Part shown: positions 4,819-23,131 of the stretch, one piece after another
Layout of the letters: each line of letters starts with the position of its first letter
Position numbering within the stretch: position 1 is the first letter of the stretch
DNA from: a virus
DNA length: 23,845 bases
Virus record (IMG/VR): IMGVR_UViG_3300046000_005483
Coordinates: 1-23,845 of that record
Reading direction: 5' to 3' (one strand)
Made by a program: the position numbers and the translations under genes
Notes under the pieces: model-generated
The model's input: the letters and a program-made list of their open reading frames with translations, nothing else
Told to the model about the DNA's origin: nothing
Databases searched by the model: none

Positions 4819-5346
4819 ATGAGCAAAAAAACACTCGCCCAAATCTGCGTTGCCAATGGCATTTCGCGTGACGTTTTGGACGCCGCAAAAACCGCTGGCG
4901 TCAACGTCTGGAACGCCGAAGAACTAGCGCAACACTTAGGAAAACGACGCCACCGAGTTGCCAAGGATGCCAAGCTAACGGTCGCGCCGGTTGTTCCAGA
5001 CGACGACATGCCGGAAGACCCGCACGAGGCAATTCGGCGCATTGAGTCTGACATCCGCAGAACGCAGGATCATAACGACGTAAAGATCCTGGCCGACAAG
5101 CTCAAGGCTCTCTTGGTTGGCGTCAAAATCCGCGAGGAGATGGGCGACCTAATCCCAGTCGGTCAAGTCCGCGAGGCCGCAACCCGCGTATGCTCCGCAG
5201 CTCGATCCGAACTTCTAAAGCTGGCCGCAGATTCCGCCCCAAAGCTCGAAGGGCTTCCAGCCGCGAAGATCCAAGCCATCCTGCGCGCTGACATTTCCGA
5301 CATCCTCACCCGCCTGTCCGATGAAACCGGCAACCTCTACGACTAA
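4819..5346 (+). CDS. Terminase small subunit (Nu1-like)
   Basis: 175 residues. An N-terminal DNA-binding-type segment (about 1-45, TLAQICVANGISRDVLDAAKTAGV, then NAEELAQHLGKRRHRV) resembles the winged-helix N-terminus of Nu1-type small terminases. A helical oligomerisation and large-subunit-binding part follows (about 60-165). It recognises the packaging site and directs TerL. The next gene, TerL, starts 26 bases inside this one, the usual coupling. No clear SD precedes ATG 4819. Confidence 0.75.
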   Translation: MSKKTLAQICVANGISRDVLDAAKTAGVNVWNAEELAQHLGKRRHRVAKDAKLTVAPVVPDDDMPEDPHEAIRRIESDIRRTQDHNDVKILADKLKALLVGVKIREEMGDLIPVGQVREAATRVCSAARSELLKLAADSAPKLEGLPAAKIQAILRADISDILTRLSDETGNLYD

Positions 5347-7159
5347 CCCATTTGTGGCCGGCGCTCGCCTCGGTTTCCGCCCTCCAACCCGGCTCCAGCC
5401 GTGGCAGTGGGCGCAGAAGCATGTAAAAATCCAAAACTCCGAGCGCTCATCATCGTTCGACCCGGAGCAAACTCCCTGGTGGAAAGCTCCGATGGAATGC
5501 GCGGCAGACAGCGAAACCCGCGAGTGCGTCATCATCGCTCCGACTGGGTCCGGCAAATCTACCCTGGCCGAAGCGCTGGTGCCCTACGTTGTTTCGGAAG
5601 ACCCGGGTAATCTGCTTTACGCATCGCAGACCGACCCTGACGCAAAATTTTGGGCAGAAACCCGCTTGCTCCCGACGCTAAAATCCTGCGAGCCGATCAT
5701 GGGTCTATGGCCGGAAGACCGAAGCTCATCCAGAAAGCTGGAGATCATTTTCCCGCACATGGCGCTGGTCCTTGGGGGTGCCAACATGTCGAACTTTCAA
5801 GAGAAATCCTGCCGCTGGCTTTACGGCGACGAGGTCTGGAAATGGACTGCGGGTCTGATTCGGGAATTTCTCGCCCGCCATCACAACCGCTGGAACCGAA
5901 AAGTTTTCCTTGTTTCGCAAGGTGGCGAAACTGGCAAAGAGTTGGACCTTGAATGGCAAAAAACCACGCAGGCTAATTTCTCATGGAAATGCGAGAAGTG
6001 CAAAACGCCGCAGATTTATTCATGGGACTCTCTCAGGTTTGACGTTGTCCACCGGGCCGATGGTGAGATTGACGAGCAGGCCACAGCGGAAACCGCTAGG
6101 CTGGAGTGCATTTCCTGCCGTGCTCAATACCCAGACACGGCGATGGTCCGACGCAAGCTGGCTGGATCAAACATGGGAAACGGCTCGCAAGGCTACGTCG
6201 GCAGCAATCCAAACGCGTTGACCGGCTACGCTGGCTTCCATGTCGATTCCTTAGCCATCTGGTGGGTTCCCTGGTCCGACGAGGTGCTGGGCTGGCTGGA
6301 AGGCAAGCGCATGCTTCGCGCCGGCGTCGTCGATAAATACCGCCAATGGTGGCAAAAACGCCGCGCCAATTTTTGGTCTGACGACATGGCCGACGCCAAG
6401 GTTGAGATTTCCCGCTCCGATTTCTCAACGCTCGATCACGCCGACGGAAAACCAATGGAAGGCGAAGCGATGATGGGGCCGAGCGATTCCCGCAGGCCGG
6501 CGCGCTTCATAACCATTGACGTTCAAGGCACCCACTTTTGGGCCATCGTCCAAGCGTGGAAAGCCGGTGGAGGAAGCCGGATTCTTTGGGAAGGACGTAT
6601 TGCTGGCGACGGCAAAGAAGAAACAGCGCTGGTTGATCTAGCCAAACGCTACAACGTCCATCCGCCAGACGTTTGGATCGATATCGGTTACGACCAGCCC
6701 CGGATTTTTAACCTCATGGCGTTGCACCTATGGCGCGGAATCAAAGGCGAAGGAAACAAGCGGTCATTCGCTCACGTCTCGCAATCTGGCGCAAAAACCG
6801 AAAGGCTCTATTCCAAAATCCAGCGGGCGCGGTCACCTCGGGGCGCCATCGTTCAATTTGTTTTTGTCGCCACCAATCCGGTCAAAGACATCCTGCACGC
6901 GATCATTACCGGCCACGGCGCAGACATGGAATTCCCGTCTGACATGTCAAAAGACTTTGAGAAACACCTAAAAGCCGAACGTCGGGAAATGATCCGTTCG
7001 CCCAAGACCGGCCAAGAGGAATCCGTTTGGGTCACAAAGAACCGGGATAACCACCTTTGGGACTGCCTCGTCTATCAAATCGCCGCCGCGCTTATGATGC
7101 GGCTTTTTGAGTCTTTGCCAATTTCTGAACCTGACGCATCGGCCACACCTGAATCCTGA
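5321..7159 (+). CDS. Terminase large subunit (lambda gpA / GpA family)
   Basis: 612 residues, close to lambda gpA (641). The ATPase domain has Walker A APTGSGKST (73-81) and Walker B-like CRWLYGDEV (164-172). A Cys4 zinc site, CEKC (224-227) and CISC (263-266), is typical of the GpA family. The nuclease domain has D400 in RFITIDVQGTHFW, D454 in VWIDIGYDQP, and D576/D581 in NRDNHLWDCLVYQ as metal-binding candidates. It pumps DNA into the procapsid and cuts concatemers. The start at 5321 overlaps terS out of frame; the N-terminal PWQWAQKHV matches the family. Confidence 0.95.
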   Translation: MKPATSTTNPFVAGARLGFRPPTRLQPWQWAQKHVKIQNSERSSSFDPEQTPWWKAPMECAADSETRECVIIAPTGSGKSTLAEALVPYVVSEDPGNLLYASQTDPDAKFWAETRLLPTLKSCEPIMGLWPEDRSSSRKLEIIFPHMALVLGGANMSNFQEKSCRWLYGDEVWKWTAGLIREFLARHHNRWNRKVFLVSQGGETGKELDLEWQKTTQANFSWKCEKCKTPQIYSWDSLRFDVVHRADGEIDEQATAETARLECISCRAQYPDTAMVRRKLAGSNMGNGSQGYVGSNPNALTGYAGFHVDSLAIWWVPWSDEVLGWLEGKRMLRAGVVDKYRQWWQKRRANFWSDDMADAKVEISRSDFSTLDHADGKPMEGEAMMGPSDSRRPARFITIDVQGTHFWAIVQAWKAGGGSRILWEGRIAGDGKEETALVDLAKRYNVHPPDVWIDIGYDQPRIFNLMALHLWRGIKGEGNKRSFAHVSQSGAKTERLYSKIQRARSPRGAIVQFVFVATNPVKDILHAIITGHGADMEFPSDMSKDFEKHLKAERREMIRSPKTGQEESVWVTKNRDNHLWDCLVYQIAAALMMRLFESLPISEPDASATPES

Positions 7160-7480: not shown

Positions 7481-9004
7481 ATGGCAACAATCCTCAACGA
7501 ATACGGCACGCCCTACTCAAACCCGCAGCGATACGCGCATGCGTCAGAGTATGATCGTCGGCGCGGCGTGACCTATCCGGTCAAGACCGAGGACATTGAC
7601 AAATTGATCACCCCTTGGGATTCTAGGCGTCTCCGCAGCCTTTCCAGCCGCCTTTATACTAACGTCGGCGTTATTAAAGGAGCGGTCGATCAAAAAGCGG
7701 ATTACAGCGTTGGCGAAGCGTTTCTTCCGGCTTACGTTGGCGAATCAGACTTTGCGGACGGCAAGCAGATTGCCAGTTTCATGCGCAAAGTCTGGTATCC
7801 AAATTGCAACGTCAAAGGGCAACCTTTCGACTGGCACAAAACGCTTGAACTTGCCAGCGTGGCGATTGACCGGGACGGAGATCAGTTCTGGATCAAGATT
7901 GTTGGCGAAGACGGATTCCCTCGATTGCAGGTCGTTCCAGCGCACCGAGTTGGCGACGGTCCAGACGGAAGCGGCAGGGTTTCTAGCGGAAAATTCAAAG
8001 ACTTTAAAATCAGCGACGGAGTCATCGTCTACAAAAGCGGAAAGCCTGCCGCATACCGAGTTTTGACCGGCGACCTTAGAATCAGCGAGACTTTTGAGGA
8101 CATTGAGGCGGCAAACGTCATCCACATTTTTAATCCAGATTTTGCAGAGCAAACCCGAGGAATCCCTGCATTCAGTCACGCGCTGATGGACATTTCTGCC
8201 TGCCTTGCATCCACGGAAGACGAGCGCATTCGGCAACAAATCATTTCCAGATTACACCTTACGGTTTTTAACGAGTCAGGCGGGCCGGATCTAGATGACC
8301 CGATGAATTCAATCCAAAATCCAACCACTGACTCATCGTTTGTCATGCAAAACATCCCAGGCGGGGTCGTTTACATGCAAGCCGGAAGCGGCGAAAAGAT
8401 GGAGCAGGTCAAGCACGACTCACCCGGCGATATGTGGGAGAACTTCCAAGACCGAATGATCCGCATGAGTCTTGCGCCGTGCTGGCCTTATTCCATTTGG
8501 AAAGGTGCCGGCCAAGGGACCGATGCTCGGGCCGAGATCGTAAAAGGCCGACGGTTCGTCTTAAAACGCCAAAGGGATTTGCGTCGAGCTGCCTTGGCCG
8601 CTTTCTCGTTTGCGTATTCCGTATTTCAAAAAGCAGGCCGCGTTCCCTTGCTCGACAATCCGTTTGCCTGGTCGTTTTCCAAACCGCCGCGCCTATCCGT
8701 TGACGATGGACGCGAGTCGAAAATGGAGGTCGATGAATGGCGGGCAGGACTTCGCAACACCGACGAAATCACCGAGGCTCGCGGGCTAACTGAGGAGGAG
8801 TTTTACACGAAGCGGGCGCATTCTGTTGCGCTTCGCAAAGTCATTGCGCGTCAAGTATCGCAGGACGTTTCCGCGTCATCCGGCTTTGAAATCGAAGTTG
8901 AGGACAGGGAAATGGCGATGCTGACCGCTAACGAAATGGGCCACGACCAGCCGGACACCTCAGATCAAATCATTCAACCAAATCAAAACGATGAAGATTC
9001 TTAA
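7481..9004 (+). CDS. Portal protein (lambda gpB family)
   Basis: 507 residues, typical for the family (lambda gpB 533). Features include PWDSRRLRSLSSRLYTNVGV near 45-64, a GVIKGAVDQKADYSVG-type segment after it, and the C-terminal block KPPRLSVDDGRESKMEVDEW with RAGLRNTDEITEARGLTEEEF, which is highly characteristic of lambda-type portals. It forms the dodecameric DNA channel at one capsid vertex and binds the terminase. The stop overlaps the start of the protease gene by 14 bases. No SD precedes ATG 7481. Confidence 0.95.
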   Translation: MATILNEYGTPYSNPQRYAHASEYDRRRGVTYPVKTEDIDKLITPWDSRRLRSLSSRLYTNVGVIKGAVDQKADYSVGEAFLPAYVGESDFADGKQIASFMRKVWYPNCNVKGQPFDWHKTLELASVAIDRDGDQFWIKIVGEDGFPRLQVVPAHRVGDGPDGSGRVSSGKFKDFKISDGVIVYKSGKPAAYRVLTGDLRISETFEDIEAANVIHIFNPDFAEQTRGIPAFSHALMDISACLASTEDERIRQQIISRLHLTVFNESGGPDLDDPMNSIQNPTTDSSFVMQNIPGGVVYMQAGSGEKMEQVKHDSPGDMWENFQDRMIRMSLAPCWPYSIWKGAGQGTDARAEIVKGRRFVLKRQRDLRRAALAAFSFAYSVFQKAGRVPLLDNPFAWSFSKPPRLSVDDGRESKMEVDEWRAGLRNTDEITEARGLTEEEFYTKRAHSVALRKVIARQVSQDVSASSGFEIEVEDREMAMLTANEMGHDQPDTSDQIIQPNQNDEDS

Positions 9005-10061
9005 AATTGAAAACAAGACCGGCAAAGTAACGCTGGACGATACGGTTGACGAATTCAGCCGAAAGCAACTGGCGCGGGAAATGTCCAAGGTTTTTGGCGC
9101 AGAAGCGTTCACGAATCCCGACTTTACCAACTTGACCAACGAGGCCAGCAACCAAGTGGACCGGCTGGAAATCACGATCAATTCCCCAGGCGGCAGCGTT
9201 TTTGACGGCATGGTCATCGTCAACGAACTGAAGGCAATGAGCGCAAAAGGCGTTCACACGGTCGCCATCGTCAATGTCCTTGCCGCTTCAATGGGCAGCG
9301 TGATTGCAGCGACTTGCGACGAATGCCAGATCGTCCCTAATGGTCAAATGATGATCCACGACGTTAGCGTTGGAGTCAGGGGGACTTCAAAAGACTTGCA
9401 ACGGATGGCGGATCTTTGCGAAGGCATGTCCAACGAGATCGCCGGAATATACGCAGAAAAGACCGGCAGGCCAATGGCCGAAATGCGCGAGCTAATGATG
9501 GATGAAACTTGGATGAACGCAGCCAAATGCGTTGAGCTTGGCTTTGCAGACAGCCTGTTTGACATTCGCGCCGAGCATGGCAAAACCGTTTCCAACATGA
9601 GCCTGCTAGCACGCCTCACAAACCCTTCTGCCGACGAAGCCGTCGGACGCATTTCCGCCTTGGAGAATCAAATTTCCTCTTTGGAAGCCGATCACGCAAC
9701 GGCATTTGCCGATTTTAAATCCAAGATCGAAATTGCCGAAACCGCATTGCAGGAAGCAGCCGGATTTAAAAACGAGATCGAAACTCTTACCGGGAAACTC
9801 ACAGAGTCTGACCGACTGGCAAACGAAAACGCGCAAGCAATCTCCGAACTTACCGACAAGCTCAGCAAAGCCGAAAGCTCTGCCGCTGGTAAAGCGGTTG
9901 AAATTGCCGCTGCCGCTGGAATCACCGCACCTCTGGAAATTGAAAACCTCGGGTCAACACCCGTGGATCATTTGCTTGAAGTCGGCAAACTCACTGGATC
10001 AGCTCGCACAGAATACATTTCCAAGCACGGCAAGGAAATCCGCGAGCAAATGAAAAAATAA
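8991..10061 (+). CDS. ClpP-like head maturation protease with C-terminal scaffold-like region
   Basis: 356 residues. The N-terminal half is a ClpP/S49-type serine protease: SPGGSVFDGM (65-74), nucleophile S100 in LAASMGS, H123 in MMIHD and D171 in MMDETW, then ELGFAD (182-187). Residues 216-300 are heptad-like coiled coil (ISALENQISSLEADH and onward). This matches the lambda gpC/Nu3 plan, in which the scaffold is nested at the 3' end. M203 (codon at 9597) is a candidate internal start for a separate scaffold. It processes the procapsid during maturation. It directly precedes the capsid gene. Confidence 0.9.
   Translation: MKILKIENKTGKVTLDDTVDEFSRKQLAREMSKVFGAEAFTNPDFTNLTNEASNQVDRLEITINSPGGSVFDGMVIVNELKAMSAKGVHTVAIVNVLAASMGSVIAATCDECQIVPNGQMMIHDVSVGVRGTSKDLQRMADLCEGMSNEIAGIYAEKTGRPMAEMRELMMDETWMNAAKCVELGFADSLFDIRAEHGKTVSNMSLLARLTNPSADEAVGRISALENQISSLEADHATAFADFKSKIEIAETALQEAAGFKNEIETLTGKLTESDRLANENAQAISELTDKLSKAESSAAGKAVEIAAAAGITAPLEIENLGSTPVDHLLEVGKLTGSARTEYISKHGKEIREQMKK
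9597..10061 (+). CDS. Possible nested scaffold protein (internal start)
   Basis: In-frame ATG 9597 would give a 154-residue protein, MSLLARLTNPSADEAVGRIS and onward, consisting almost wholly of the coiled coil and tail of the protease, as lambda Nu3 lies within gene C. A TTTGACATTCGCG string begins 39 bases upstream. There is no SD, and M203 lies at the domain boundary. Evidence is positional only. Confidence 0.4.
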   Translation: MSLLARLTNPSADEAVGRISALENQISSLEADHATAFADFKSKIEIAETALQEAAGFKNEIETLTGKLTESDRLANENAQAISELTDKLSKAESSAAGKAVEIAAAAGITAPLEIENLGSTPVDHLLEVGKLTGSARTEYISKHGKEIREQMKK

Positions 10062-10095: not shown

Positions 10096-10989
10096 ATGGC
10101 TACCATTTCATTCAACGACACGATTTTTGCGCAACAGGCTTTGATTGCCTTCACTGCCAAGCTCGCTCCACTCCGCGCATTTTCCCGCAGTCTTGACGAC
10201 TCGGCCGCAAAGGTTGGCGACGCCATTGTCATTCCCTACATTTCGGCGGCTACGGCAACTACGTTTAACGCCAGCACCGCCAACTACCAAACCGGCGGCG
10301 GCGCGGTGACGCACAACACCGTTTCGATCAACCAGCACAAGGTTGTTACGTTCGACATCACCGACCTTCAAGCTGCCAACAGCTCGGGAGCGCGTTTCGA
10401 CGAACTGGCCTTTGCCGCTGGTCGCGCTCTTGGCGATCTGGTGCTCCAGAACATCTGGAAGCTGATTACCACAACCAACTTTGGCAGCGCATCGATCACC
10501 ACGCTTGAAGCAAACTACTCCTTGTCATCTTTGATTGAGCTGCGCAAAGTGCTAGCTGGCCGCAATGTTGATGTTGATCCGGGAGTTTGCAGCTTCATCC
10601 ACAACACCGTGGTCGGAGCAACCCTGCTTGGAACCGCCAACGTGTTGAACGCTTATCAGATTGGCGACAATCAGGCAGCGCGGCAAGGCACCCTTGGCCA
10701 GTTGGTTGGATTCCCGACTTACGAAACCAACATCCTGCCAACCGCCGCGACTTCGCTTGTTGCGTTTGCAGCTCACCCAGATTCGATCAACATTGCGATG
10801 CGCTACCTGGAGCCGCTTGCCGCTTCCGAGTATCTTGCTGTTGAGCGCGTTGCCGATCCTTCCGGCATCGTTATGGGCTATCGCCGCTCTTTTAATGCCG
10901 CGACCGGCGTGATGTATGGCGCTTTTGAGTGTCTCTTTGGGACTGCAACCGGCCTCACCCTCGGGCTGGTGCATGGCACGAAGCCATAA
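10096..10989 (+). CDS. Major capsid protein
   Basis: 297 residues, of even Ala/Thr/Val-rich composition and no Cys clusters. Position after portal and protease and before a strong terminator marks it as the major capsid protein. Segments such as KVGDAIVIPYISAATATTF (39-57), INQHKVVTFDITDLQA (78-93) and FIHNTVVGATLLGTANV resemble HK97-fold coat proteins of this size (P22-like or lambda E, 341). The leader (10062-10095) is A/T-rich without an SD. It forms the icosahedral shell. Confidence 0.85.
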   Translation: MATISFNDTIFAQQALIAFTAKLAPLRAFSRSLDDSAAKVGDAIVIPYISAATATTFNASTANYQTGGGAVTHNTVSINQHKVVTFDITDLQAANSSGARFDELAFAAGRALGDLVLQNIWKLITTTNFGSASITTLEANYSLSSLIELRKVLAGRNVDVDPGVCSFIHNTVVGATLLGTANVLNAYQIGDNQAARQGTLGQLVGFPTYETNILPTAATSLVAFAAHPDSINIAMRYLEPLAASEYLAVERVADPSGIVMGYRRSFNAATGVMYGAFECLFGTATGLTLGLVHGTKP

Positions 10990-11017
10990 GTTTTTCTGGT
11001 GTTGTGTTCATTCGGGG

Positions 11018-11050
11018 AAACCCGCTGTCAGAAATGGCAGCGGGTTTTTT
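11018..11050 (+). terminator. Rho-independent terminator after the capsid gene
   Basis: AAACCCGCTGTC (11018-11029), loop AGAAAT, and GGCAGCGGGTTT (11036-11047) form a 12-base stem with one T.G wobble, followed by a T run (11045-11050). It ends the head operon and implies a new promoter for 11095 onwards. Confidence 0.9.
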
Positions 11051-11053
11051 CGT

Positions 11054-11083
11054 TTGCCAATTTTGCCATGAAGTAATATCAAG
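11054..11083 (+). promoter_or_regulatory. Weak promoter candidate for the glycosyltransferase block
   Basis: TTGCCA (11054-11059) and TATCAA (11078-11083), 18 bases apart, lie between the terminator and ATG 11095; an AGGA SD (11088-11091) precedes the ATG. The geometry differs from the leaderless set. It is suggested mainly because a promoter is needed after the terminator. Confidence 0.3.
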
Positions 11084-11094
11084 GCGCAGGAAAT

Positions 11095-13332
11095 ATGAAA
11101 AAGAAACTGAGCTTGTGCGTCATTGCCGGGAATGTGGAAAATATCATGGGGCGCTTTTTGGATGCCTTTGGGCCATTGGCCGATGAGGTGATTGTGGTCC
11201 GCTCAACAGGCCGGCAAGTCGAATCGGACCAGACTATTGCCATTGCCAAGAAGAAGGGATGCCGCACTGGCGAGTATTGGAACGATCCAAAAAATAAATG
11301 GCCGCACGTTGACGACTTTGCCGCAGCCCGAAACATGGCTTGCGACATGGCGACCGGCGACTGGCTAATGTGGGCCGACACCGATGACCTAATTGACGAG
11401 GATTCAATCAAGCAAATCCGCCTTCTCATTGAAGACATCCACGAAAAAGACTGCGACGGTGTTCTGATGCCCTACGTCGTGCCCGAGGATGGCGTCATCA
11501 ACTGGCGCGAGAGGCTTTGGCGCAAGGGGTCGGCGCGGTGGCAAAATCCCGTGCATGAGTGCCTTAAATTTAACGACGACGCCAAGCCCTCAATTCGATT
11601 TGAATCTGCCAGAATTACCCATGCAAGCGAGCCAAGGACGGCAGCGCGTGACGAGCGCAACCTGCGGATTCTTGAAAGCATTCCAGAAGACAAGCGGACC
11701 ATTTCTCAGAAATTCCACGTTTTCCAATCGCTGATTGCGCTGGACCGAAACGACGAGGCAATCCCTAAAGCTATCGAATTTATTGGACTGGAAGGCGTTG
11801 GCAAGCCGGAGCTTTACGAAGCATACTTCCAACTGGCCAGACTCGCGCAGGATGGCGAGGTCAGGAAATCAATGCTGATCCAAGCCATTTTAACCGACCC
11901 TTGCAGGCGCGAGGCATTTGGGGAACTCGGTCTTGCGTCACTGCCGGCGGATTCAGAATCCGCGCTTGGATGGACCGAGGCGATGATGGCATTGAAGCTG
12001 CCGGCGAATCCTCCGTGGAACCTTCGCCGGACCTATTACGGGCAACTCGGCATAGGGCTGCGAGGAATGGCTTTAAGGGCGTCAAATAGGCGCGAGGAGG
12101 CAGACGCGCTGGAAACCAATCACTTCATTCGCTCTGGAGCTAAGATTAGCCTTTTGCATGCCACCAGGGGCCGTCCTGCAATGGCATGGAAAACCCGGAT
12201 GGAATGGATGCGAGCGGCAGACAATCCAGATTCCGTGGAGCATATTTTTGCAATTGATAGCGACGACCACGGTTCGTTCCCGCTGTTCAACACGAGATCA
12301 GTAGTGACAAGCGGAAGCGGCGGGCCGGTTGAGGCGTGGAACCTTGCCGCAGAGCAGGCGCAAGGCTCTGTTCTGGTGCAACTATCTGACGATTTCCGAT
12401 GCTTCCAAGGATGGGACACGGCAATTCTGACCGCGATTGGCAACACCTCAAAACCCGCAGTGCTTGCCGTTTCTGACGGATTCCGAGCGGATGGACTTTT
12501 GTGCATGGCAATCTTGACTCGCGCAAGATACAGGGACCAAGGACACCTGTTTCACCCTGAGTTTTTTAGTATGTATTCCGACAACTGGTTTTCCGAATGC
12601 GCCTATCGTGACAAAGCTGTCATCGATGCGCGGCATTTGGTTTTTGAGCATGTTCACCCAGCGGCGGGAAAAGCGCAAACCGACGAAACCTACGAGCGCA
12701 GTAATTCCGCAGAAAACTACCATGCAGGCCAAGCAACTTACGAGCGGCTAAAAAAAGGAATTAAGTTGGCGCGGGATATTGGAGGCTGGTGCGATTACTC
12801 GGCATTTTACCGGGCGCTTGCTAGGTCAATTCCAGACGGCGCGGTTTTTGTCGAGATTGGATCTTGGATGGGCCAGTCGATTGCCGTCTTTTGCCAAGAA
12901 CTTCAGGACATTGGCAAGGCCGCAGAAGTCTGGTGCGTGGATACGTTTAAGGGCGAGCAAAACCAACCGGCGCACGTTGAAATCGTGGAAGACAACGGCG
13001 GAAGCATTAAGCACCTATTTGATCGAAACACCGAGGCGGCTGGAGTGCGCGACATGATCAAAGCCATCGTTGGCGACTCTGCGGAATCAGCCAGCAAATT
13101 TGCAGACGGTTCCATCGATGCCGTTTACATCGACGCAGCGCACGACTACAATTCCGTTGTCCGGGACTTGGCGGCATGGTTTCCAAAGGTCAAGCCAGAC
13201 GGCGTTTTTTCCGGTCACGACTACCCATGCGAAGACGTAAAGCAGGCCGTTGACGAGCACGCTGCCGCTAATGGCTACACCGTCGAGCAAATCGGAAGAG
13301 TCTGGATGAGAACAACCAAAGAAAAACCATGA
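11095..13332 (+). CDS. Glycosyltransferase-TPR-glycosyltransferase-methyltransferase fusion
   Basis: 745 residues. Domain 1 (1-160) is a GT2-type nucleotide-sugar transferase with WADTDD (93-98) as the metal/sugar-binding DxD motif and AARNMACDMATGDWLMW before it. Residues about 180-345 are helical, TPR-like (for example RDERNLRILESIPEDKRT). Domain 2 (350-525) looks like a second GT-A domain: ISLLHATRGRP, VEAWNLAAEQAQGSVLVQLSDD (D432/D433). Domain 3 (about 560-745) is a class I SAM methyltransferase: VFVEIGSWMGQS (584-595), VWCVDTFKG, AVYIDAAHDYNSVVRD (676-691). It probably builds and methylates a glycan on virion proteins or host surface. It starts a post-terminator block; AGGA precedes the ATG. 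Confidence 0.85.
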   Translation: MKKKLSLCVIAGNVENIMGRFLDAFGPLADEVIVVRSTGRQVESDQTIAIAKKKGCRTGEYWNDPKNKWPHVDDFAAARNMACDMATGDWLMWADTDDLIDEDSIKQIRLLIEDIHEKDCDGVLMPYVVPEDGVINWRERLWRKGSARWQNPVHECLKFNDDAKPSIRFESARITHASEPRTAARDERNLRILESIPEDKRTISQKFHVFQSLIALDRNDEAIPKAIEFIGLEGVGKPELYEAYFQLARLAQDGEVRKSMLIQAILTDPCRREAFGELGLASLPADSESALGWTEAMMALKLPANPPWNLRRTYYGQLGIGLRGMALRASNRREEADALETNHFIRSGAKISLLHATRGRPAMAWKTRMEWMRAADNPDSVEHIFAIDSDDHGSFPLFNTRSVVTSGSGGPVEAWNLAAEQAQGSVLVQLSDDFRCFQGWDTAILTAIGNTSKPAVLAVSDGFRADGLLCMAILTRARYRDQGHLFHPEFFSMYSDNWFSECAYRDKAVIDARHLVFEHVHPAAGKAQTDETYERSNSAENYHAGQATYERLKKGIKLARDIGGWCDYSAFYRALARSIPDGAVFVEIGSWMGQSIAVFCQELQDIGKAAEVWCVDTFKGEQNQPAHVEIVEDNGGSIKHLFDRNTEAAGVRDMIKAIVGDSAESASKFADGSIDAVYIDAAHDYNSVVRDLAAWFPKVKPDGVFSGHDYPCEDVKQAVDEHAAANGYTVEQIGRVWMRTTKEKP

Positions 13333-13511
13333 GCAAAGGAAGCAAACCACGACCAGTTGACCCGCGCAAATTCGCGCAGAATTACGAACAAATCTTTAGA
13401 AAAAAACACGATGAAATTATCAATCCTGACGCCGACGATTCCAACGAGAGCAAGCCAAGTTGCCAAGCTGCAAGAAAAGATCCAAAGCCAAATCGAAAAC
13501 CTGCCAGTTGA
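13329..13511 (+). CDS. MSKGSK-type small phage protein overlapping the next gene
   Basis: 60 residues from ATG 13329, overlapping the previous stop (ATGA). The N-terminus MSKGSKPRPVDPRKFAQNYE resembles a family of tiny basic phage proteins that I recall from other phage genomes (usually 25-40 residues, K/R-P-rich, ending near IF-basic); the C-terminal half here is unlike them. It overlaps the downstream glycosyltransferase by 101 bases in another frame. Function is unknown. An A7 run at 13400-13406 could allow slippage, but nothing shows it is used. Confidence 0.6.
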   Translation: MSKGSKPRPVDPRKFAQNYEQIFRKKHDEIINPDADDSNESKPSCQAARKDPKPNRKPAS

Positions 13512-13977
13512 ACACCTTGTTTTCTGCGATAACCGGCAGCGCTCAATCGGAGCAAAGCGGCAGGCGCTGGTCGATATTGCGCGGGGTCAATACGTTGCAT
13601 TTGTGGACGATGACGACGACATTTCCAACGACTACGTTTCCAGCATCCTGATTGCAATCGGCCACAATCCAGACGTTGTGACTTTTCGGCAGCGGGCAAT
13701 TTACAACGGGCTGGAATCTGAAGTTCATTTTGGGGTCAATAATCTAGACGGGAAATTCAATGCCGGCGGGATCACGTTTCGCGCCCCTTGGCACGTTTGC
13801 GCCTGGAAGCGGGACGTTGTCGCCGGATGCCTGTTTGGCGAGTCAAACTATGGCGAGGATTTGATCTGGTGCGAGCAAGCGCGAAAGCGAATCAAGACCG
13901 CTAGCCACATTGATTTGACGCTTCACACCTACCGGCACGACGCCGCTTTGACTTCGGCACCTGAACCGGTAGGATAA
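13411..13977 (+). CDS. Small GT2-type glycosyltransferase
   Basis: 188 residues from ATG 13411; the frame opens earlier at a TTG (13357), but MKLSILTPTIPTRAS is the natural GT-A start. SIGAKRQALVDIARGQYVAFVDDDDD (about 45-70) is the canonical GT2 approach to the metal-binding acidic motif (66-70). NAGGITFRAPWHVCAWKRD and NYGEDLIWCEQA (146-157, acidic pair E149/D150) match the acceptor-side catalytic region. It transfers sugar from a nucleotide donor. It lies in the same block as the fusion transferase, so both may act on one glycan. No SD was found. Confidence 0.85.
   Translation: MKLSILTPTIPTRASQVAKLQEKIQSQIENLPVEHLVFCDNRQRSIGAKRQALVDIARGQYVAFVDDDDDISNDYVSSILIAIGHNPDVVTFRQRAIYNGLESEVHFGVNNLDGKFNAGGITFRAPWHVCAWKRDVVAGCLFGESNYGEDLIWCEQARKRIKTASHIDLTLHTYRHDAALTSAPEPVG
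13948..13975 (+). promoter_or_regulatory. Promoter TTGACT-16-TAGGAT, leaderless geometry (13982 gene)
   Basis: TTGACT (13948-13953), 16-base spacer, TAGGAT (13970-13975), then six bases to ATG 13982: exactly 34 bases from box to start. It lies in the 3' end of the glycosyltransferase gene. Confidence 0.6.
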
Positions 13978-13981
13978 CGGC

Positions 13982-14314
13982 ATGAGCTTGCTGACAGATT
14001 TTACTATTGCCGCCTCTTCCGCCTCCTTTGCGGTCATTGGCGCTGAATCCTTGACCATTGGAAGCGGAGCCGCAGTCGATGCCGTCTTTGACGAGATTGT
14101 CAGCAGCAAAGATTTTGGCGAGTTTGGCAACGACACCGACAACGCGCTGGTGGCCGTAGTTCGTCGCGCAGCTTGGGACGCCGCTTACCCGCTGGCCGGG
14201 CTGGAATACGTTAACCAAAAAGCAACCGCCCGAGGCACCACGTTCCGGGTCAAGCGCGTCCGCATCGGAGCTGGGTTTGCCGAGATCATGCTGGAGACTT
14301 TAACGAAGGCTTGA
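13982..14314 (+). CDS. Head-tail connector protein (FII position)
   Basis: 110 residues; lambda FII is 117. The N-terminus MSLLTDFTIAASSASFAVIG and middle ALVAVVRRAAWDAAYPLAGLEY, with FRVKRVRIGAGFAEIMLETL at the C-terminus, give a beta-rich small domain. Placement after the capsid block and before tail genes fits a connector. Identity to a known family was not recognised. The AGGA in its promoter (13971-13974) is eight bases from the start and could double as a weak SD. Confidence 0.5.
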   Translation: MSLLTDFTIAASSASFAVIGAESLTIGSGAAVDAVFDEIVSSKDFGEFGNDTDNALVAVVRRAAWDAAYPLAGLEYVNQKATARGTTFRVKRVRIGAGFAEIMLETLTKA

Positions 14315-14357: not shown

Positions 14358-14891
14358 ATGGACGCCGCGCTGCTCACTGATTCCCTCCCCGCCGATGTGG
14401 TTGGCTGGTGGGTTTCGGAGAAGCTCGACGGTGTCAGGGCAATCTGGAACGGCTCGAAACTCCTGACCCGCAACGGCAAGGACTTGAAGGCGCCGGCCAG
14501 TTTTACGGCGGGTCTGCCACGCGGTTCAAGGCTTGACGGTGAGCTTTGGATGGGGCGCGGGACTTTTGACCGACTTGTTTCCACAATCCAGAAGGCTGGC
14601 AGCGATTGGGCCGGCGTAAAATTCATGGTTTTTGATTTGGCCGAAGCTGGCACTTTTGAGGACCGCGATGCCAAATTGCAACAGATGGAAATCGCTCATC
14701 CCGCAGAACTGGTTTTGCACATTGCGCTGCAAGGCCACGACGAACTTTGCTCACGCGAGTCAGCTATTGTTGCGGCAGGCGGCGAGGGTTGCGTTATTCG
14801 TCGCCCCGGCTCGCCTTATCGCCCAGGACGTATGGGCGACGTAATCAAGGTAAAGCGGTTGGTGTCCGACGTTGAGCGCTGGCAGGGCTGA
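14358..14891 (+). CDS. Minimal ATP-dependent DNA ligase (adenylation domain only)
   Basis: 177 residues. Nucleotidyltransferase motifs are in order: motif I EKLDGVR with lysine K22; motif III LDGELWMG (59-66); motif IIIa FMVFDL (89-94); motif IV GEGCVIRR (142-149); motif V DVIKVKR (161-167). The protein stops right after motif V, so the OB-fold domain (motif VI) of normal ligases is missing. It may still adenylate itself, or may need a partner. It could seal nicks at packaging ends or assist repair. It lies alone among virion genes, with its own promoter, so it is likely a moron-type acquisition. Confidence 0.85.
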   Translation: MDAALLTDSLPADVVGWWVSEKLDGVRAIWNGSKLLTRNGKDLKAPASFTAGLPRGSRLDGELWMGRGTFDRLVSTIQKAGSDWAGVKFMVFDLAEAGTFEDRDAKLQQMEIAHPAELVLHIALQGHDELCSRESAIVAAGGEGCVIRRPGSPYRPGRMGDVIKVKRLVSDVERWQG

Positions 14892-16120: not shown

Positions 16121-16555
16121 ATGTCACTTGCAACCGTTTACGGAACCGCCCAATACGCCCTTGCCGACGAATCTACCGCAACCGGACTTTTTGCCGGGAC
16201 CGTAAGTTTTACCGGCGCGTCCGACAACACTGAGCTTCCAGATCATCTTGGATGCGCTGTCGGTTTTGCCGTAGGAAATCCAAAAAAGGACATTTCCGTT
16301 GAAGGCATCGTTAAAACCAAAGGCACGGGTTTGGTCGACTACATCGGCAGCACTATCGTTCTTGCCAATTCGACGCACAACACCCGCACTCGACTCAATG
16401 AAGGGCTTGGCGATAGTATCGCCAGCGCAACTGGCGCGGCGATTATCATCACCGGCAACACATTGAGCGCAACCGCCACAGGCTTTGAATCAGGGGGGAT
16501 TTCTGGCGTTTATCTGCCATTTGTTGCTGCTGGAACCGTAGTTGTTTTGACCTAA
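16121..16555 (+). CDS. Major tail (tube) protein candidate
   Basis: 144 residues, beta-rich, with Gly/Thr/Ala-rich strands: GTAQYALADESTATGLF, DISVEGIVKTKGTGLVDYIG, AIIITGNTLSATATGFES. It has no TM segment or signal peptide. It sits in the gpV position between the tail terminator and the chaperone genes. The length is shorter than lambda gpV (246), as expected if a C-terminal Ig domain is lacking. The leader has no SD. No motif fixes the family. Confidence 0.5.
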   Translation: MSLATVYGTAQYALADESTATGLFAGTVSFTGASDNTELPDHLGCAVGFAVGNPKKDISVEGIVKTKGTGLVDYIGSTIVLANSTHNTRTRLNEGLGDSIASATGAAIIITGNTLSATATGFESGGISGVYLPFVAAGTVVVLT

Positions 16556-20405: not shown

Positions 20406-21257
20406 ATGGCAATTTCATCCGCCCAAGCAATTTACGGCTTTAACTGCATCGGCACGTTTGCCGACACCGACCTGCAAGCCGGCACCGTTCAAATCGGACC
20501 CTCCCAAAAGTCGGTTTCGCTGACGACCGGCACAATCGGCTACGGCGTAAAAGCAGAGCTAACGACCTCGACAAACACGCTCACTCTCGACGTTCAAACC
20601 AACACCGCCAGCGGCACCGCTTACGTCGCAGGAACCGCCCAGGTCGAAACCGCTACCGTCGTTGCGGCGTCCGGGTGCACGAGCAACGGAAACTGCTCGC
20701 TGACCTTCACCTCCGCTGCCGTCACCGGCTCGCCCCTGACCGTCGTTGTTGCCCTTACAACCGCCAGCAACACTGCCACGCTTGTTGCTGCCGCTCTCGC
20801 CGCAGGATTGGCCGCAAACGCCGCCATCGCCGCCGTGTGGACCGTTACAAGCTCCGGGGCCGACATCCTGTTTACCCGCATCGTGGACGCCAACGGCTAC
20901 AAATACGCAAACGAGGCCGGAACCAACTTGGACATTCCCGCCGGCCTTGGTTTGACCGCCGCCGCAACATCCGCAAACACAACCGCAGGCGTTGTTACCA
21001 GCGGGACAAACATTACCGTTGGCGGCGATACAAAAGACTTCCGAGGCGCAGCACTGACCAGCATCACGACCCTCCAGGGCGTTTTGATTGACGTTGCAAG
21101 CGGCAGCGGAACTGCAACCAACGGCACGCAGGTGTTTTTGCTGCCGTATTTTTTCCAATCACTTACCGGCACAACTGGCACAATGCTGACTGCGGACCTT
21201 GTTATTACGGCAACCTCAGCCAAAACGCTTTTAAACATCACCGTAATCGGAAAGTAA
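20406..21257 (+). CDS. Ala/Thr-rich virion surface protein candidate
   Basis: 283 residues, very rich in Ala, Thr, Ser, Gly and Val (for example TATLVAAALAAGLAANAAIA), with almost no charged runs. A central stretch (about 78-180) has Cys pair CTSNGNC, and it is flanked by similar strand-rich parts (SVSLTTGTIGYGVKAELTTS before, ITVGGDTKDFRGAALTS after). That composition fits beta-sandwich decoration, spike or fibre proteins. It has its own leaderless-type promoter, so its amount could be set independently. Confidence 0.45.
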   Translation: MAISSAQAIYGFNCIGTFADTDLQAGTVQIGPSQKSVSLTTGTIGYGVKAELTTSTNTLTLDVQTNTASGTAYVAGTAQVETATVVAASGCTSNGNCSLTFTSAAVTGSPLTVVVALTTASNTATLVAAALAAGLAANAAIAAVWTVTSSGADILFTRIVDANGYKYANEAGTNLDIPAGLGLTAAATSANTTAGVVTSGTNITVGGDTKDFRGAALTSITTLQGVLIDVASGSGTATNGTQVFLLPYFFQSLTGTTGTMLTADLVITATSAKTLLNITVIGK

Positions 21258-21261
21258 GATC

Positions 21262-21609
21262 ATGGCAAAACCAGCAAGGGCAGAACTTGAGCCAATTGTC
21301 TATCGGGACACATGGGCCGGATTTACTGTGTCGGCATCCTCCACTGGATCGGCATTGGATTCCAACCTTTCCAGTGTTCGCATGTTTTTCCGAGATGGGG
21401 ACGGGGTCACTGGTCTTGAGCTAACCAGCGCAAATTCTAAGATTACTATCACCGACGCAAACGCATACGCGTTTACGGTTTTGCCAGTCAATCCGCTAAC
21501 TTTGGACATTGGCAATTGGTATTGGTCAATTGAGACAACTAACGCGCTTGGCATCATTAAAACCTACATCGTCGGGACTTTGGAAGTATTGAGCGACGCT
21601 ACTTTCTAA
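21262..21609 (+). CDS. Small beta-rich protein, BppU N-domain-like
   Basis: 115 residues, beta-sandwich-type: DTWAGFTVSASSTGSALDSN, VRMFFRDGDGVTGLELTS, and GNWYWSIETTNALGIIKTYI near the end. The FRD-G---EL-S and GNWYWSIET pattern resembles N-terminal domains of baseplate upper (BppU-type) and fibre-anchor proteins. It directly precedes the collagen-like fibre gene, so it may anchor the fibre. The assignment is tentative. Confidence 0.45.
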   Translation: MAKPARAELEPIVYRDTWAGFTVSASSTGSALDSNLSSVRMFFRDGDGVTGLELTSANSKITITDANAYAFTVLPVNPLTLDIGNWYWSIETTNALGIIKTYIVGTLEVLSDATF

Positions 21610-21613
21610 ATTT

Positions 21614-23131
21614 ATGGCCGAAACAATCACACTAATTTTGACTGAAGACGATGGAGAAACAATCACCGTTTCGCTTGACCAAGCAGCAACCGGCGCAACC
21701 GGCGCAACCGGCGCAACCGGCGCAACCGGCGCAACCGGAGCAACCGGCGCCCAAGGCGACCGCGCTGGACTAAAATACACTTTCGACAGCAACACAAATC
21801 CCGGTGCGCCAAGTCCAGGACATCTAAAATTTAACAGCGCAACTTTAAGCGCGGTCACCCAAATTGCCATTCGTGACACGGATTTCGACGGCACCGATAT
21901 TACCGCATTGCTGGCTTTGATTGACGACTCGACCTCGACGACAAAAGCCCGTGTGCTCATCCGTAGCAACTCAAACTCTGACGCCAGCAATTTCAACTTT
22001 CTGGTCACCAGCGTTACCGATGAGGGAAACCATTTCCACATCAATGGCACCTACGTTTCAGGCTCTGCATTTACGGACAACGAGGTTGTCACTTTTGATT
22101 TTTACATGACCGGCGACTTGGGCGCAACTGGCCCAGCACCATCCGGCACGGGATTCGTGAAGGTTGTTTCCGGCGTATTGCAGACGCCGAGCAACGCAAT
22201 AATCGTCACAAGCGTTAATGGCATTACAGTTACGCCGAATGGATCAGGCACCCTAACAATGGCGGGAAGCATTGACACGAGCAACAACGGCGGCAGCATA
22301 AATACCAGCAACGGCGGCAGCATTAACACAAGCGGTGATGGCGGCAGCATCAACACAACTGCACAGGGTTTTGTTGAATTTGGAAATGATGGTCAACGAA
22401 CATCTCTGGAAGGAGCTGCCACTGAAAATCGCACAATCGGTCTTCCAGACGCATCTGGCACCATCGCGCTAACCGCTAACAAACTCTCCGCCTTCGCCGC
22501 CACAACATCCGCCGAACTGGCAGGCGTGATTTCAAATGAGACAGGAACCGGATCGCTAGTTTTCGGAACGTCGCCGACGATTGACGCGCCTACGGTTTCC
22601 GGCGCAGCTCAATTCACGTCCACCACCCGCCCGACGAGCGCAGGTACAGGCACACCAGCGGCAACGAGCTTGATTACGCGAAATGACGTAGATGCACGCG
22701 TCGGAAGATCCGTCACCTTGGCGTCCGATTTAACTATCACTTCAAACGCTGTCGCGCAGGATGTCCCCAGCATGTCGCATACAGTTGAGGCAAACAAAAG
22801 CTATTCATTCGTCATCGTTATGGAGGTTTCTGAAAACGCATCGCCCAGAAACCAATCCTTCGAGTTCGGCATGCCGTCTGGCGGAGCGGTGATGCTTCAA
22901 CTACAGGCCACCGCTAGCGGGTCACCGGCAATTTACAATTACGGAAACTCAACATCCGTTCCTAATGCATTGGCGAGCGGAGCTTATGGAGGTGTCGTGA
23001 CGATTTCAGGGATGTTTACAAATTCCTCAACGGCTGGAAATTTAGTTTTTAAAGCCCGCCAAACAGTTTCATCCGCCACGGCAATGACTATAAAAAAGGG
23101 TGCTGTTTTTGCAATTTATCCCACATTTTAA
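21614..23131 (+). CDS. Collagen-like tail fibre / receptor-binding protein
   Basis: 505 residues. After a short N-terminal segment, residues about 25-48 are GAT collagen-type triplets (at least six) plus GAQ-GDR. Residues 218-249 hold four copies of GGSINTS-type repeats. The segment SAFAATTSAELAGVISNETG and GSLVFGTSP (292-321) is a motif common in phage fibres, and DASGTIALT precedes it. The C-terminal 120 residues (about 370-505) form a predicted beta-rich receptor-binding head. It trimerises and contacts the host surface. The two repeat tracts may vary by slippage. Confidence 0.8.
   Translation: MAETITLILTEDDGETITVSLDQAATGATGATGATGATGATGATGAQGDRAGLKYTFDSNTNPGAPSPGHLKFNSATLSAVTQIAIRDTDFDGTDITALLALIDDSTSTTKARVLIRSNSNSDASNFNFLVTSVTDEGNHFHINGTYVSGSAFTDNEVVTFDFYMTGDLGATGPAPSGTGFVKVVSGVLQTPSNAIIVTSVNGITVTPNGSGTLTMAGSIDTSNNGGSINTSNGGSINTSGDGGSINTTAQGFVEFGNDGQRTSLEGAATENRTIGLPDASGTIALTANKLSAFAATTSAELAGVISNETGTGSLVFGTSPTIDAPTVSGAAQFTSTTRPTSAGTGTPAATSLITRNDVDARVGRSVTLASDLTITSNAVAQDVPSMSHTVEANKSYSFVIVMEVSENASPRNQSFEFGMPSGGAVMLQLQATASGSPAIYNYGNSTSVPNALASGAYGGVVTISGMFTNSSTAGNLVFKARQTVSSATAMTIKKGAVFAIYPTF
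21686..21750 (+). repeat. 9-base tandem repeat GCAACCGGC (collagen-like GAT triplets)
   Basis: Six or seven near-identical units, with a single GCAACCGGA variant near the end. The 9-base period keeps frame, so strand slippage would change triplet number and fibre length. Confidence 0.85.
22265..22360 (+). repeat. GGCAGCATMAACAC-type repeats (GGSINTS)
   Basis: Four degenerate repeats of about 21-27 bases, encoding GSIDTSNNG, GSINTSNG, GSINTSGDG and GSINTT in the fibre. Unequal spacers differ by in-frame steps of three bases. Confidence 0.75.

Follow-up and report, generated by a model that had tools for sequence, protein, structure and literature searches.

Directly behind the major capsid gene of an uncultured phage, one open reading frame encodes a fusion of two glycosyltransferases, a TPR-like helical block and a methyltransferase, which, judged from its sequence and its modelled structure, probably works together with an adjacent third glycosyltransferase (GT3) as a one-polypeptide machine that would build a glycan on a protein of the virion; the product of the upstream major capsid gene is the likeliest acceptor. 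The window, by which we mean the whole stretch of DNA that was analysed, comprises the 23,845 nucleotides of IMG/VR record IMGVR_UViG_3300046000_005483, and the features on which the argument depends are the following:

5321–7159, plus strand: terminase large subunit, GpA-like (Pfam GpA_ATPase, E = 3e-25; phrog_15)
7481–9004, plus strand: portal protein of the lambda family (Pfam Phage_portal_2, E = 3e-28)
8991–10061, plus strand: ClpP-like head maturation protease (Pfam CLP_protease, E = 7e-27; phrog_94)
10096–10989, plus strand: major capsid protein, 297 aa (phrog_283/267, major head protein)
about 11013–11054, plus strand: intrinsic terminator in the gap between the capsid and fusion genes (hairpin ending in a T run, RNA fold z = −5.56)
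11095–13332, plus strand: whole fusion gene, ATG start, 745 aa
11095–11640, plus strand: GT-A domain 1 (WADTDD), SunS/ThuS/GmaR-like, residues 1–182 (Pfam GT2; phrog_13126; PDB match to GmaR, E = 5e-10)
11641–12132, plus strand: TPR-like helical block, residues 183–346 (AlphaFold secondary structure; SunS/ThuS alignment to residue 289)
12133–12780, plus strand: GT-A domain 2 (DSDD, QLSDD), residues 347–562 (phrog_14945; WrtF, GalNAc-T2 and RmlT folds)
12781–13329, plus strand: sugar O-methyltransferase-like class I domain, residues 563–745 (Methyltransf_24; MeT1, SpnH, MycF and NovP folds)
13411–13977, plus strand: GT3, a stand-alone GT-A enzyme (DDDDD; phrog_8858, E = 3e-30; frame also open from a TTG at 13357)
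13982–14314, plus strand: head-completion gene, Hc1-like, at the end of the exchange block (phrog_82, E = 0.016, a weak match)

The original prediction, made from the letters of the sequence, described a real and open reading frame with two GT-A-like domains, a TPR-like bridge and a class I methyltransferase, and most of this description was borne out by profile and structure searches. Pfam placed Glycos_transf_2 on two stretches of the protein (E = 5e-11) and Methyltransf_24 on residues 586–710 (E = 2e-23), and PHROGs profiles matched glycosyltransferases at residues 4–297 (phrog_13126, E = 2e-14) and 350–550 (phrog_14945, E = 4e-19) and a methyltransferase at residues 568–724 (phrog_2675, E = 1e-28). 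An AlphaFold2 model of the fusion (mean pLDDT 92.7, pTM 0.85) was used for fold searches, in which residues 1–289 resembled the SunS/ThuS peptide glycosyltransferases (Z 19–21), residues 348–561 resembled WrtF, GalNAc-T2 and RmlT (Z about 17), and residues 544–744 resembled the sugar O-methyltransferases MeT1, SpnH, MycF and NovP (Z 18–20), upholding both the second glycosyltransferase and the methyltransferase. Residues D95, D97, D98, Q429, D432 and D433, which belong to the WADTDD and QLSDD motifs, were invariant across 37 relatives, and these aspartates together with the fold matches indicate a GT-A fold with a DxD-type metal motif in both glycosyltransferase domains. The methyltransferase domain has a class I SAM fold with a metal-site-like D...(H/D)D motif, and its IDxxH...HD motif is that of MeT1, the best PDB match of the methyltransferase profile. 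The bridge held up in structural terms, with a helical array in the model and the SunS/ThuS alignment extending into it, but no TPR family in Pfam matched the fusion at E up to 1. No membrane segment was found in the fusion protein. Between the window and a 98%-identical relative, dN/dS was 0.066 over the fusion gene and 0.04–0.09 across its four parts, all of which are under purifying selection.

The genes run in the order terminase, portal, ClpP-like protease, major capsid, terminator, fusion, GT3 and head-completion gene, so that the capsid-gene terminator and the downstream connector genes named in the original prediction are both in place, the latter beginning with the weakly matched Hc1-like gene. 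The terminator, a strong one, was seen by RNA folding, having been overlooked by a simple terminator scan, and a terminator-like hairpin lies in the matching gap of 63 of 78 relatives. GT3, whose model is a GT-A enzyme (pLDDT 95), had been missed in the enzyme set first proposed, in which the fusion itself was correctly recognised. A 60-residue frame at 13329–13511, beginning MSKGSKPRP, overlaps the fusion stop codon (ATGA) and the start of GT3 and occurs only in the window and L002; it was rejected as a part of the cassette, since a match was present in just 2 of 113 pairs, each of the window's own kind. Amid the connector genes there is also a DNA-ligase-like frame at 14358–14891 (phrog_114, E = 1e-22; Pfam DNA_ligase_A_M at threshold), the position of which shifts in relatives, being on the minus strand in L020 and before the terminase gene in L027.

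To survey relatives, GT domain 2 was used as a query, which returned 74 viral loci; loci from all queries, some of which were the same contig, were then pooled and merged at 92% identity of GT domain 1, leaving 67 non-redundant loci with both glycosyltransferase domains. The GT-TPR-GT core was in a single reading frame in 67 of 67. The methyltransferase was fused to it in 43 loci, was encoded by the next frame in 4, was replaced by an FkbM-like frame in 1 (a sub-threshold Pfam assignment, E = 0.0019), had no match in 10 and was cut in 9; it is a modular element. Of 51 informative relatives, 46 had GT3 after the fusion. At 65 of the 67 loci, the head gene recognised closest upstream of the core, within 1 kb, coded for a capsid protein, of the window's own family in 52 and of a second family (phrog_1005) in 13. 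Searching from the capsid side gave a similar picture: 80 contigs were found by the capsid query alone, with the cassette in 70 of the 71 that were informative, and the second-capsid-family query found it in 18 of 18 informative contigs. No record of a cultured phage covered at least 80% of the fusion, and no similar capsid-linked glycosyltransferase cassette was found in the literature.

Several loci carried variations on this arrangement. The GT-TPR-GT core at L040:2261–4054 directly follows the terminase gene, not the capsid gene. The FkbM-like frame in the methyltransferase slot is at L064:8618–9214, with similar frames in L068, L181, L183 and L185–L189. In some phages with the second capsid family, a GT-B-like frame (L056:9704–10618; Glyco_trans_1_2, sub-threshold), possibly a fourth glycosyltransferase, lies behind GT3. 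At L108:7002–7553, just behind the capsid gene of a locus that ends before the cassette region, a repetitive frame built of ARKWDEANPEKRREA units resembles the window frame at 1708–2136.

The original prediction left the target as capsid or tail, and it is the capsid that the evidence favours. Among the 24 loci with all genes present, a sample that was shaped by retrieval with GT-domain-2 and capsid queries and in which pairwise distances are non-independent, the divergence of GT domains 1 and 2 correlated with that of the capsid at rho 0.77 and 0.79, with the protease at 0.48 and 0.46, with the portal at 0.22 and 0.30, and with a tail tube candidate (16121–16555, named by its place in the gene order, with no PHROG match) at 0.17 and 0.23. 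The values for the capsid were 0.67 and 0.71 in a stricter set of 15 loci, in which tail and portal fell to about 0. Methyltransferase divergence tracked no gene well (0.21 with the capsid). Co-inheritance of the glycosyltransferases with the capsid could be due in part to adjacency, yet adjacency alone is insufficient to account for it, because the protease on the capsid's other flank tracks the capsid at only 0.43. One locus reads as a natural swap of the capsid block in a sister phage: L173 is 86% identical to the window in terminase, 66% in portal, 75% in the head-completion gene, and 67% and 82% in two connector-region genes, and at L173:4252–7212 its protease differs, its capsid protein (5636–6802) is another one that blastp did not match to the window's, and the glycosylation cassette is missing. 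Its tail tube candidate differs as well (33%), so L173 taken by itself cannot tell a capsid target from a tail target. Counting against the capsid link are the phage P8625 and L175, whose distantly related capsids come without the cassette, and L040, where the core follows a terminase gene. We also looked in the capsid for cassette-specific Ser/Thr acceptor sites: 13 Ser/Thr columns were conserved and none stood out in comparison with only two distant cassette-less relatives (22–24% identity), and total Ser + Thr content did not differ between capsids with and without the cassette.

That a tail protein is glycosylated instead of, or besides, the capsid, whether the tail tube or the Thr-rich and collagen-like proteins at 20406–23131, is in our judgement unlikely. 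Ser + Thr makes up 22–27% of the window's tail proteins vs 17% of its capsid, the protein at 21614–23131 has (GAT)n collagen-like repeats with 26% Ser + Thr and is a possible acceptor, and phages of the Che8 type are described as glycosylating the tail tube as well as the capsid (PMC12363180). Against this, glycosyltransferase divergence follows the capsid and not the tail tube, the cassette keeps its place behind the capsid gene nearly throughout the survey, and collagen-like repeats of this kind were found elsewhere only in one L160 frame, most loci ending before that region.

The relatives also bear on the host. The only cultured relative of the window's capsid is that of the Verrucomicrobia phage P8625 (25% identity), which has the same order of terminase, portal, Clp protease and P22-like coat and, unlike the window, lacks a glycosylation cassette after its capsid gene. 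Stand-alone relatives of GT domain 2 occur in Verrucomicrobiota chromosomes, on several contigs with adjoining glycosyltransferases and methyltransferases, and together with the P8625 match they make Verrucomicrobiota the probable hosts of at least some of these phages. Metagenome bins were rejected as a sole guide to the host, since they were mixed: full-length matches fell in bins of Verrucomicrobiota and of Armatimonadota, and those that were partial or split in bins of Thermoleophilia, Betaproteobacteria and Burkholderiaceae. Beside one of the stand-alone GT domain 2 relatives, in a Verrucomicrobiota chromosome, L163:10912–12639 encodes a GT2–Methyltransf_24 fusion, a possible cellular relative of the cassette.

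This chromosomal setting among other glycosyltransferases and methyltransferases would also suit an enzyme that modifies a glycan of the host cell surface, perhaps to keep out superinfecting phages or to change the surface of a lysogen, and GT2 genes of temperate phages often alter the O-antigen. We regard such a role as quite unlikely, given that the protein is soluble, that no flippase or carrier-lipid glycosyltransferase was recognised within the window, and that the gene sits in the head block behind a terminator and is inherited with the capsid. Modification of phage DNA, with sugar and methyl groups on bases as a defence against restriction, is very improbable: phage glycosyltransferases for hydroxymethylcytosine exist and phrog_2675, the best PHROG of the C-terminal domain, carries the label "DNA methyltransferase", but the folds are those of protein or polysaccharide glycosyltransferases and small-molecule sugar O-methyltransferases, no base-hypermodification genes were recognised within the window, and the gene is linked to that of the capsid, so that the label was set aside on folds and location. 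There is next to no chance that the product is a secreted glycosylated peptide of the glycocin kind, as SunS makes of sublancin, for although SunS/ThuS is the closest fold for residues 1–289, membership of the SunS family (TIGR04195) was rejected at 19.6 bits vs an NCBIfam cut-off of 350, no precursor peptide or bacteriocin transporter was recognised beside the fusion, the gene has head genes as neighbours at almost every locus, and an additional glycosyltransferase and a methyltransferase are present.

A built-in pathway of glycan assembly and methylation acting on the virion, as originally proposed, is the best-supported reading of the folds, the capsid linkage and the homology of GT3 to Che8 gp108. 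In such a pathway the N-terminal GT-A and TPR-like module would hold the acceptor polypeptide and add the first sugar, as in SunS, ThuS and GmaR, the second GT-A domain and GT3 would extend the glycan, the C-terminal domain would carry out SAM-dependent O-methylation of a sugar, and the terminator behind the capsid gene would hold the enzyme well below the level of the capsid. That the methyl cap is the last step we can only infer, because the methyltransferase is a modular tailoring domain that is absent or replaced in some relatives. The benefits named in the original prediction, protection from host defence or a change in receptor binding, are conjectural. One published observation counts against a virion glycan: a phage whose sole gene of this kind was a putative methyltransferase gave no glycoprotein stain (PMC12894461).

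The four-part enzyme is fixed behind the capsid gene in a large group of uncultured phages and passes down together with the capsid, which suggests that phages with decorated capsids may be common in nature. The two adjacent genes form a directly testable enzyme–acceptor pair, of which natural variants differ in the methyl step. A more speculative extension, which we hold to be rather doubtful, is that capsid and glycosyltransferases are matched to each other and move between phages as a single block, with the GT-TPR-GT core tuned to its own capsid and the methyltransferase freely swapped to vary the outermost tag, and that the virions carry a methylated glycan similar to the surface polysaccharide of the host, from whose enzymes the cassette may derive; were this so, glycosylation of the capsid would count among the core traits of a widespread group of phages that probably infect Verrucomicrobiota.

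Among characterised enzymes, SunS/ThuS and the Listeria flagellin glycosyltransferase GmaR share with the fusion a GT-A plus TPR-like architecture and act on polypeptides, but SunS and ThuS are only 16–18% identical to the fusion, which adds another glycosyltransferase and a methyltransferase. MeT1, SpnH, MycF and NovP have in common with its C-terminal domain the class I fold and a metal-site-like D...HD/DD pattern, at about 15–20% identity, and only the domain of the fusion is joined to glycosyltransferases.

To our knowledge, few tailed phages, most of them mycobacteriophages, have been shown to glycosylate their virions. The nearest cultured-phage relatives of GT3 are of the Che8 gp108 kind (57 records, all of Mycobacterium or Gordonia phages), and GT3 aligned with the glycosyltransferase domain of gp108, itself a glycosyltransferase–methyltransferase fusion, at E = 2e-32 and 36% identity (hhalign). 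Che8 gp110 and Corndog gp38 are reportedly glycosyltransferases essential for capsid glycosylation; gp110 gave no significant match with the A2 or A3 glycosyltransferase queries in a single-sequence comparison, and gp109 and gp110 fall in other PHROGs than the glycosyltransferases of the cassette. Che8 virions are reported to be glycosylated (Freeman et al. 2023, as cited in PMC11256854 and PMC12363180). Like the cassette, Che8 genes 108–110 (and also Corndog gp38 and Myrna) provide phage-encoded glycosyltransferases, but the Che8 glycosylation genes include no four-part GT-TPR-GT-methyltransferase fusion. Genes 108–110 lie at the far end of the Che8 genome, to which we take the head genes not to be adjacent, whereas the cassette of the window stands directly behind the capsid gene. 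Set beside these systems, the cassette is a probable variant of phage virion glycosylation in which the one-gene architecture is unusual and the link to the capsid unusually tight.
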